Shown here one piece after another: positions 5,388 through 26,191 of a DNA stretch of 29,054 bases. Numbering within the stretch: position 1 is the first letter of the stretch; the number at the start of each line of letters is the position of its first letter. This DNA comes from a virus. Both the position numbers and the translations under genes were made by a program. The notes under the pieces were generated by a model. It was not told the DNA's origin, made no database searches, and was given only the letters and a program-made list of their open reading frames with translations. The stretch spans positions 1 to 29,054 of IMG/VR virus record IMGVR_UViG_3300002835_000818; one strand, written 5' to 3'.

Positions 5388-5477
5388 GGAAGGTCAATCC
5401 GATTGGCGACGGAACCTGTCTTGAAAACAGTTGAGGTGTTAAAGCCCTTGGGAGTTCGACTCTCCCACCTTCCGCCA
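5388..5477 (+). tRNA. tRNA-Ser (anticodon UGA)
   Basis: Acceptor GGAAGGT (5388-5394) pairs with ACCTTCC (5467-5473); discriminator G 5474 and an encoded CCA 5475-5477. Anticodon loop CTTGAAA holds TGA at 5422-5424. A long variable arm makes the class II shape expected of Ser. T arm GGGAG-TTCGACT-CTCCC. The outermost anticodon-stem pair is a C/T mismatch. It decodes UCA, common in the AT-rich tail genes. The next tRNA begins at the very next base. Confidence 0.93.
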
Positions 5478-5549
5478 CGGGGCATAGTTCAGCGGTAGAA
5501 TGCTGGTTTTGGGAACCAGAGGTCGCAGGTTCGATCCCTGCTGCCCCGA
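5478..5549 (+). tRNA. tRNA-Pro (anticodon UGG)
   Basis: Acceptor CGGGGCA (5478-5484) pairs with TGCCCCG (5542-5548), discriminator A 5549. CCA is not encoded (TCA follows). Anticodon stem CTGGT/ACCAG, loop TTTGGGA with TGG at 5510-5512. T arm GCAGG-TTCGATC-CCTGC. It decodes CCA, heavily used in the fibre gene at the left of the window. It abuts tRNA-Ser, so the pair must be cut from one transcript. Confidence 0.94.
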
Positions 5550-24925: not shown

Positions 24926-25138
24926 ATGGATAGTATCGATAAACATATTCAGCATGATATTGATATCCTAGATAATCCAACAACTTCCCCTCAGCAGAGA
25001 AGACATACTGAAGAGGAACTGAAGTCATTGGAATCTTATAAAAATAATCATCCTGATGCTAAGAATGATCCAACCCCTCTAGAACTATTTTGTGATGAGA
25101 ATCCACATGCAGATGAGTGCCGAATTTACGATGTTTGA
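24926..25138 (+). CDS. cp12: CP12 (Calvin-cycle regulator)
   Basis: 70 aa. The C-terminus PLELFCDENPHADECRIYDV is the CP12 signature, with Cys56 and Cys65 forming the redox pair. CP12 is a disordered linker that binds GAPDH and phosphoribulokinase and shuts down carbon fixation; cyanophage CP12 is thought to redirect carbon flux to the pentose phosphate pathway and nucleotide synthesis. The N-terminal Cys pair of plastid CP12 is absent, as in many cyanobacterial and phage forms. It sits at the head of the island inserted between gp27 and gp5. Confidence 0.92.
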   Translation: MDSIDKHIQHDIDILDNPTTSPQQRRHTEEELKSLESYKNNHPDAKNDPTPLELFCDENPHADECRIYDV

Positions 25139-25163
25139 CAAGCAGCGTCTGGTGTGCTATGAT
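25135..25163 (+). promoter_or_regulatory. Sigma70-type promoter overlapping the cpeT start codon
   Basis: TTGACA at 25135-25140 and TATGAT at 25158-25163 with a 17-nt spacer. The -10 box includes the cpeT ATG (25159), so a transcript from it would start near 25170, inside cpeT. It may therefore serve tRNA-Val and rlpA rather than cpeT, or be a chance match. The -35 again reads TTGACAAG. Confidence 0.5.
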
Positions 25164-25617
25164 TACGGAGTTCTTGAGTTGCCTGCTTGGCACTTGGTCT
25201 AACAAGCAACAAGCATATGGCAACCCATCTAAGTTCGCCTGGATTCTAATCTCTTGGGAACAAGTCGATGATGGTAAGTTCTATACTAAGCAGTGGTATC
25301 ACTACAAAGGTAAGAACGATCCATATCGAGAAAAATACTACACTATGACTGAAACTGAATCTGGAATTCTTCTCCAGAATTGGAACTTAGACTGGACAAG
25401 GAACGAAAGGTGTGATACAATAGTCACTCCTGAAATCAAAGGTAAATGGGTTGGAACAAACATCGGAACGGAATGCATTGTAAGAGGTGCTATTCTTCGT
25501 TCCGAGTTCCAATTGTCAAAAGAATCGTTATTTACCCGTGATGCGGGATATCTAAATAACCAAATAACTTGGGGTAGTAAAGACTACTATCACTTTGGGC
25601 GATTAACTCAGCGGTAG
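25159..25617 (+). CDS. cpeT: CpeT-like phycobiliprotein lyase
   Basis: 152 aa from ATG 25159; the open frame further up crosses CP12 and has no ATG. The sequence LSCLLGTWSNKQQAYGNPSKFAWILISWEQV, split by the family landmarks GTWSNKQQA and FYTKQWYHYKGKNDPYREKYY, matches CpeT/CpcT (DUF1001-type) lyases, which attach bilin chromophores to phycoerythrin. Cyanophages carry such genes to keep light harvesting or its repair active during infection. The last eight codons (HFGRLTQR plus stop) run 21 nt into tRNA-Val. No good ribosome-binding site is visible. Confidence 0.88.
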   Translation: MITEFLSCLLGTWSNKQQAYGNPSKFAWILISWEQVDDGKFYTKQWYHYKGKNDPYREKYYTMTETESGILLQNWNLDWTRNERCDTIVTPEIKGKWVGTNIGTECIVRGAILRSEFQLSKESLFTRDAGYLNNQITWGSKDYYHFGRLTQR

Positions 25618-25711
25618 AGTGCCTCCTTTACACGGAGTAGGTCGGCGGTTCGATCCCGTCATCGCCCATTGATAGTAGGCTTTTTTATTATGAAGCACTT
25701 GACTACTATCA
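25582..25711 (+). repeat. 11-bp direct repeats flanking tRNA-Val with a complementary copy between them
   Basis: GACTACTATCA occurs at 25582-25592 and 25701-25711. TGATAGTAG at 25670-25678 is complementary to both, giving either a 9-bp stem closed over the whole tRNA or a 9-bp hairpin downstream with a 24-nt loop. Six T residues follow at 25681-25686. Confidence 0.7.
25597..25668 (+). tRNA. tRNA-Val (anticodon UAC)
   Basis: Acceptor GGGCGAT (25597-25603) pairs with ATCGCCC (25661-25667), discriminator A 25668; CCA is not encoded. D stem ACTC/GAGT, anticodon loop TTTACAC with TAC at 25629-25631, T arm GGCGG-TTCGATC-CCGTC. The top anticodon-stem pair is a C/T mismatch, as in tRNA-Ser. Its 5' 21 nt are also the end of cpeT. 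It decodes GUA. Confidence 0.94.
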
Positions 25712-25722
25712 TTTAGAGCCCA

Positions 25723-25760
25723 GGAAGGTGCCCTCCGAGAGGTTGGGTGTACCCCCCTTC
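25723..25760 (+). ncRNA. Predicted structured RNA (three-way junction) before rlpA
   Basis: Outer stem GAAGG (25724-25728) with CCTTC (25756-25760), an inner hairpin CCTC-CGA-GAGG (25732-25742) and a second GGG-TGTA-CCC (25745-25754). This is a compact G/C-rich element in an otherwise AT-rich spacer, 30 nt upstream of the rlpA ATG. It does not match a riboswitch class I can name. It could be a leader or a separate RNA. Confidence 0.4.
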
Positions 25761-25789
25761 TATTGGGATGTAGAGTTCTATCAAAATTA

Positions 25790-26152
25790 ATGCGTCTTAT
25801 TTCAACACTTTTACTTGCTTCTACACTTATTGGATTTACGCCCCAAAAAGCAGAAGCAGCGAGCGGATGTTCCCTCGCCTCACATTATGGAATCGGTGAT
25901 GGATATCATGGGCAGACAACTGCCAATGGAGAAAGATACAATGCTTATGGGAAATCGGTAGCACACAAGTGGTTACCATTTGGGACCAAGTTGAGAGTGA
26001 CGAATCAACGAAATGGTAAATCAGTGATTGTGCGTGTGAATGATCGTGGTCCTTATGTAGGTGGTAGGGATCTAGATCTATCCTATGGTGCATTTTCTAC
26101 TATTGCTTCACCAAGTCAAGGTGTAGCAAGTATTTGTTATAATAGAGTTTGA
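25790..26152 (+). CDS. Secreted RlpA-like protein (double-psi beta-barrel)
   Basis: 120 aa from ATG 25790; an upstream in-frame TTG is not needed. Residues 1-24 are a Sec signal peptide (LISTLLLASTLIGF, cut after AEA-A) without a lipobox, unlike bacterial RlpA lipoproteins. The rest is one double-psi barrel: ASHYGIGDGYHGQTTANGE, VAHKWLPFGTKLRV and VIVRVNDRGPYVGGRDLDLS. E48, H59 and D85 keep the spacing (11 and 26) of the catalytic residues reported for RlpA of Pseudomonas, a lytic transglycosylase. Export to the periplasm suggests a role in wall cleavage at lysis. The SPOR domain is missing. It ends just before a strong terminator. Confidence 0.85.
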   Translation: MRLISTLLLASTLIGFTPQKAEAASGCSLASHYGIGDGYHGQTTANGERYNAYGKSVAHKWLPFGTKLRVTNQRNGKSVIVRVNDRGPYVGGRDLDLSYGAFSTIASPSQGVASICYNRV

Positions 26153-26158
26153 GATATT

Positions 26159-26182
26159 AGGGAGGGCAACCTCCCTTTTTTT
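26159..26182 (+). terminator. Intrinsic terminator after the RlpA-like gene
   Basis: AGGGAGG (26159-26165), GCAA tetraloop, CCTCCCT (26170-26176), followed by seven T (26176-26182). It separates the accessory island from the gp5 late promoter. Confidence 0.92.
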
Positions 26183-26183
26183 G

Positions 26184-26191
26184 TATAAATA
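26184..26191 (+). promoter_or_regulatory. Late promoter box TATAAATA for gp5
   Basis: A perfect T4-type late box, 28 nt upstream of the gp5 ATG and directly after the terminator, the same distance as at gp4. Confidence 0.85.

Follow-up and report, generated by a model that had tools for sequence, protein, structure and literature searches.

Why does a lone tRNA-Val gene in a cyanophage stand between two protein-coding genes, with an exact repeat on either side of it and the complement of that repeat immediately after it? The window, a stretch of 29,054 nt that is part of a T4-like cyanophage (a 29 kb viral record), has the gene order hub/tail gene, CP12, cpeT, tRNA-Val, rlpA-like gene and gp5-like gene, and Synechococcus phage S-CREM1 has an identical order, including the tRNA. 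All parts of this locus lie on the plus strand. A consensus scan predicts a sigma-70-like promoter at 25135-25163 (TTGACA-17-TATGAT, 11/12 matches), which is the probable start of a cpeT–tRNA-Val–rlpA unit. The cpeT-like gene (25159-25617) encodes a product that matches Pfam CpeT over residues 5-77 (PF06206, 7.3e-12); the scan was made with the C-terminus obtained by joining the flanks of the tRNA, and the Pfam match falls upstream of that join. The final 21 nt of cpeT, including its TAG stop codon, lie within tRNA-Val(TAC), which Rfam places at 25597-25668 (tRNA, 63 bits) and ARAGORN at 25596-25669. The rlpA-like gene (25790-26152) encodes a putative DPBB lytic transglycosylase with a secreted-type N-terminus (Pfam DPBB_1 PF03330, 5.4e-22), and a pattern scan finds an intrinsic terminator after it at 26159-26186. 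Because a promoter precedes cpeT, the consensus scan finds no promoter-like match between the six-T run that follows the tRNA and rlpA, and a terminator follows rlpA, the simplest transcription unit comprises cpeT, the tRNA and rlpA.

The initial annotation of this DNA placed the repeats correctly. The direct repeat GACTACTATCA has two copies in the window (25582-25592 and 25701-25711), its complement TGATAGTAG has one (25670-25678), and the six-T run, preceded by GC after the complement, lies at 25681-25686. In Markov-resampled 151-nt stretches, the 11-nt direct repeat has a probability of ∼0.003, the 9-nt inverted repeat ∼0.16 and the two jointly ∼0.0004 (∼4 in 10,000 stretches), and the arrangement is therefore real and above chance. 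It was also correctly noticed that the strand at 25670-25678 has two possible partners: it can close a stem around the whole tRNA with the upstream copy, or form a local hairpin with the downstream copy, and both pairings are sterically possible. When 25570-25720 is folded as a single RNA, the enclosing stem is preferred (−50.2 versus −47.2 kcal/mol for the local stem; z −4.3), and the local hairpin forms when the upstream strand is removed. Comparison with relatives indicates that the two pairings are unequal in standing and that the local one is the conserved one.

The local hairpin, P1, has its 5′ basal strand, TGATAGTAG, 1 nt past tRNA-Val (25670-25678) and its 3′ strand, CTACTATCA, within the downstream repeat copy (25703-25711); once it forms, the six-T run becomes the 5′ side of its loop. 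Among 22 tRNA-linked copies, 97.7% of P1 cells are paired, with two-sided changes in 7 pairs and 34 cells; the basal stem is paired in 98.5% of cells and has two-sided changes in 6 of its 9 pairs. None of 500 shuffles is as good, and slid versions are only 21-56% paired. The strand variants include TGATAGTAG/CTACTATCA, TGGTAATAC/GTATTACCA, TGGTAACAC/GTGTTATCA and TGACAACAC/GTTGTTGTCA. The tRNA that precedes P1 varies (Val, Val+Ile, Tyr, Arg or Asn), and P1 starts 0-2 nt from the end of the tRNA in all tRNA-linked copies, which number 16 of 94 leader copies and 27 rows once further searches are added.

The enclosing stem behaves differently. The upstream repeat copy consists of cpeT codons, those for D-Y-Y-(H); before the precursor is cut, positions 25584-25592 of this copy could base-pair with 25670-25678. 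The C-terminus ...DYYHFGRLTQR is common to the window, loci L005 and L006, and S-CREM1, and reads ...DFYHFGRLTQR in L023. The stem has no mismatch in the window, S-CREM1 or L006. Among the cpeT-linked loci there are eight distinct combinations, each of which keeps 7 or more of the 9 pairs (90% of cells overall, one two-sided pair); covariation in these eight does not rise above shuffles (37/500). It is absent from the tRNA-Tyr, -Arg and -Asn loci, from several tRNA-Val loci and from all tRNA-linked loci without cpeT, including L301 and L297, which have the window's P1 strand after tRNA-Val yet lack the upstream copy. The stem occurs only with cpeT upstream because the codons GAY TAY TAY CAY (DYYH) complement TGRTARTA by composition. 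The idea that pairing between leader and trailer is common among the tRNAs of these phages was rejected, since the baseline averages −3.4 kcal/mol and nine contiguous pairs occur in 1%. The window's enclosing stem is thus unusual for these tRNAs but is accounted for by the cpeT codons, and it possibly forms in the modelled precursor. Of the two-way pairing first proposed, the downstream half is conserved in relatives with compensatory changes, whereas the enclosing half occurs only beside cpeT. As judged from these comparisons, the upstream repeat is ordinary coding sequence, and with the downstream repeat begins a leader RNA that has strong comparative support.

This conserved structured leader occupies 25669-25789. 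Its order is P1, P2 (25719-25727 with 25757-25767), a GAGA-capped P3 (25734-25736 with 25741-25743), the nearly invariant GGATGTAGAGTTC and a start codon at fixed spacing. The core (25711-25781), which is supported by covariation, scores 99.2 bits with covariance model R1, whose training set includes the window. Across 84 distinct cores, 95.6% of P2 and P3 cells are paired and 95 cells have two-sided changes, compared with a mean of 27 for shuffled controls, none of 500 of which reached as many; slid versions were far worse. P2 occurs as CCCA/UGGG, CCGA/UCGG (L005) and CCUA/UAGG (S-PM2), and in DSL-LC03, which is outside the alignment, as CCGU/ACGG. The pairs of P3 vary while its GAGA/GAAA loop is kept. 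The 94 distinct leader copies come from an exact DNA pattern scan together with earlier loci; because most were fetched with the exact pattern, the invariance of the pattern letters is partly by construction. This selection does not bear on the covariation seen in P1, in P3 or at those positions of P2 that vary. A nearly invariant ATGTAG within the leader (25768-25773 in the window, and in relatives; ATGTCG in L024) reads as a start codon followed by a stop codon, 22 nt ahead of the real start and in a different frame.

The leader was found by R1 in six cultured phages, S-PM2, S-CREM1, DSL-LC02, DSL-LC03, S-SRM01 and, in divergent form, S-CRM01, four of these matches being outside the training set; such carriers make mapping of RNA ends feasible. 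A host origin is without support, as the exact pattern has no match in a genome collection of 84,980 species and R1 finds nothing in 292 cyanobacterial genomes under strict filters, a set from which a positive control is absent. Use of GGATGNNGARTTC as a wider marker was abandoned, since its matches in S-CAM1 and S-SZBM1, like one of the two in S-SRM01, fall within coding sequence by chance. Two possible divergent relatives were noted separately: GGATGCTGAGTTC before a lysozyme gene in S-RIM8 (L267, about 730-805), and TTGTGCCGC...GCGGATGTTG before an RlpA gene in S-CBWM1 (L273, about 690-768).

In Rfam 15, no family matches 25670-25790 at E ≤ 10, nor the core in 12 further loci, and a permissive search over the region returns only the tRNA and one chance snoRNA match. 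Literature searches, with subscription journals largely outside their reach, found no description, and the leader is apparently undescribed so far. Given its compensatory changes and fixed position before functionally related genes, it would class as a structured cis-regulatory leader RNA. The manA (RF01745) and wcaG (RF01761) RNAs are likewise structured leaders of T4-like cyanophages without known ligand, but neither matches the window leader in sequence or structure; the leader serves wall-lytic enzyme genes and is far smaller than manA. Few leader RNAs are known in cyanophages, and this one, which Rfam 15 lacks, would add to them with support from covariation. The S-CREM1 paper reported an Rfam search for non-coding RNAs that gave abiF, wcaG, manA and glnA only (PMC9964418); S-CREM1 carries the leader, which is not among them. 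As a parallel to the tRNA-linked leader, the start of manA RNA lies 0-4 nt past a tRNA in all nine loci compared (L008-L013, L022, L025, L054). Several of these have another tRNA directly behind manA, as if the RNA had been excised from a tRNA array.

The genes served by the leader are of two kinds. The gene that follows is RlpA-like in 41 of the 94 copies and a phage tail lysozyme (PF18013) in 51; in two it is neither, and at least one of these two is cut by a contig end. The start codon (ATG in 87, GTG in 7) lies 24-25 nt after GGATGT in all 94 copies, 24 nt in the window, and four have a Shine–Dalgarno-like tetramer in this spacer. RlpA and the tail lysozyme are unrelated to one another, and the link of the leader to both suggests one common control at the RNA level. 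An unannotated phage-lysozyme homologue with 55% identity to the leader-linked lysozymes was also seen in S-SZBM1 (L268, 3501-3950).

The 5′ side of the leader is what connects it to the tRNA. A sigma-70-like promoter with a score of at least 10 lies upstream of 63 of the 78 tRNA-less copies, compared with 12% of control windows, and of only 2 of the 16 tRNA-linked copies, in both cases upstream of the tRNA. For 53 of 56 predicted starts, a hairpin of at least 5 bp begins no more than 3 nt away, a modest excess over the 60% seen in shuffles. The leader is thus usually preceded either by a promoter whose predicted start falls at a hairpin or by a tRNA 0-2 nt before P1, and its first element seems to be a 5′ hairpin produced by initiation or, presumably, by tRNA excision.

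We propose that the locus is a junction at which excision of tRNA-Val leaves P1 as the 5′ end of the rlpA mRNA, with the leader then protecting this mRNA and/or setting its translation; we put the probability of this reading at roughly 0.6. As the tRNA genes here encode no CCA, RNase Z-type cutting just 3′ of the tRNA is to be expected. In the tRNA form, the transcript would arrive from upstream, in the window through cpeT, and RNase P together with an RNase Z-type 3′ tRNA nuclease would excise the tRNA. The rlpA mRNA would then carry P1 at its extreme 5′ end, an end made by tRNA 3′ processing, as we infer, in place of the one that other phages obtain from a promoter. The message could thereafter be protected, and/or its translation set, by the 5′ hairpin together with the leader. 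The predicted preference of the one-piece precursor for the enclosing stem counts against this proposal. Creation of mRNA ends by tRNA excision, or tRNA punctuation, is classic in mitochondria, and the 5′-terminal stem-loop of E. coli ompA mRNA is stabilising. The present locus resembles the former in that tRNA and mRNA body adjoin, leaving no space for a promoter and showing no promoter match between them, and the latter in having a hairpin at its presumed new 5′ end. It differs from both in that the tRNA-borne leader alternates with a promoter-borne one in sister phages. Defining an mRNA 5′ end is a testable reason for a lone tRNA between genes.

The leader could instead be a real regulatory RNA (a riboswitch, thermosensor or protein-binding element) that came to lie beside tRNAs through recombination of modules at tRNA 3′ ends, with tRNA processing having no special role. 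Its occurrence behind Val, Ile, Tyr, Arg and Asn tRNAs is what a recombination joint predicts, and cpeT and leader assort independently, L023 and S-H38 having cpeT and the tRNA without the leader. However, a promoter and a tRNA almost exclude one another at this position, and the spacing is held strictly to 0-2 nt; both suggest function, and we consider recombination by itself a rather unlikely explanation.

An improbable alternative gives the enclosing stem a genuine role as a second state of the RNA. The end of nascent cpeT RNA would pair with 25670-25678, enclosing the tRNA, until RNase P cutting or cpeT translation freed the strand and let P1 form; CpeT translation, tRNA maturation and rlpA expression would thereby be coupled. 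The folding preference of the intact RNA and the pairing in all eight cpeT-linked combinations are in keeping with such a switch, but that pairing is almost automatic for these codons, its covariation is no better than shuffles and the stem is missing at every locus without cpeT. We are similarly doubtful of a composite reading: a phage-only leader family in which promoter and tRNA excision are interchangeable means of making the 5′ end and in which, at cpeT-linked loci, the same strand also pairs around the tRNA, so that the RNase P cut switches the leader fold. If it were true, the same cut would also remove the cpeT stop codon and link CpeT, tRNA-Val and a wall enzyme.

The initial annotation had likened the locus to an intrinsic terminator with the tRNA as its loop, in which case transcripts would end at the six T. 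The 9-bp stem of the window, with GC and T6 behind it, does resemble one, and the fold is stable. However, the stem is A/T-rich and, unlike P1, which places the T run 5′ in its loop, is not conserved outside cpeT-linked loci; the T run is displaced or interrupted in relatives; and termination here would sever rlpA, which has its own terminator, from its sole evident promoter. The terminator pattern scan lists none at tRNA-Val or the T run. Taken together, these observations make the terminator very improbable.

The remaining suggestion, that insertion of the tRNA and hairpin into cpeT duplicated GACTACTATCA, is scarcely credible despite the exact 11-nt direct repeat and the restoration of an open frame (...KDYYH-LEPRK...FYQN) on joining the flanks, because the 3′ copy is a covarying P1 strand that, like the hairpin, also occurs without cpeT, the upstream copy belongs to the coding sequence of cpeT and is missing from L301 and L297 despite the same P1, and cpeT terminates inside the tRNA even in phages without the leader. 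The joined frame runs through 25787 (...KDYYH-LEPRKVPSERLGVPPFYWDVEFYQN), and a search with the joined protein matched dozens of contigs over the last 25 residues only, mostly without cpeT. What these contigs hold at the DNA level is a conserved non-coding stretch directly before a start codon, interrupted by stops and by 1-2 nt indels that break the frame; no intact cpeT running into the sequence of 25712-25787 without a tRNA was found. The supposed remainder of a split cpeT is thus the leader RNA.

Overlap of cpeT with the tRNA, by 10 to 21 nt, is seen in 11 of the 12 loci examined, including phages without the leader. In many cyanomyoviruses the cpeT stop is supplied by tRNA bases (25597-25617 in the window; L174-L177, L180-L182), either at tRNA positions 8-10 (TAG/TAA, 10-nt overlap) or as a D-arm TAG (21 nt), and the overlapping cpeT is missing from the annotations of S-CREM1, S-H38 and S-H25. 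RNase P cleavage would strip the stop codon from the cpeT mRNA. Permuted tmRNA genes lie near phage tRNA clusters (L269, 1673-1894, in S-CRM01; L009, 4046-4375), and a phage tmRNA could serve such stop-less messages. Elsewhere in the window, tRNA-Ser(TGA) and tRNA-Pro(TGG) directly adjoin one another at 5388-5549; the former scores barely over the Rfam threshold as a selenocysteine tRNA, probably an artefact of its long arm. In the twelfth locus, S-RIM50 (L002, 2500-3000), an HNH endonuclease gene intervenes between cpeT, which retains the initial tRNA bases, and tRNA-Gly. The initial 12 nt of tRNA-Gly, GCGGATGTAGTT, flank the HNH gene on both sides, and the TAG within them terminates both the cpeT and the HNH frames; from its sequence, the HNH gene looks like an insertion at the start of tRNA-Gly.
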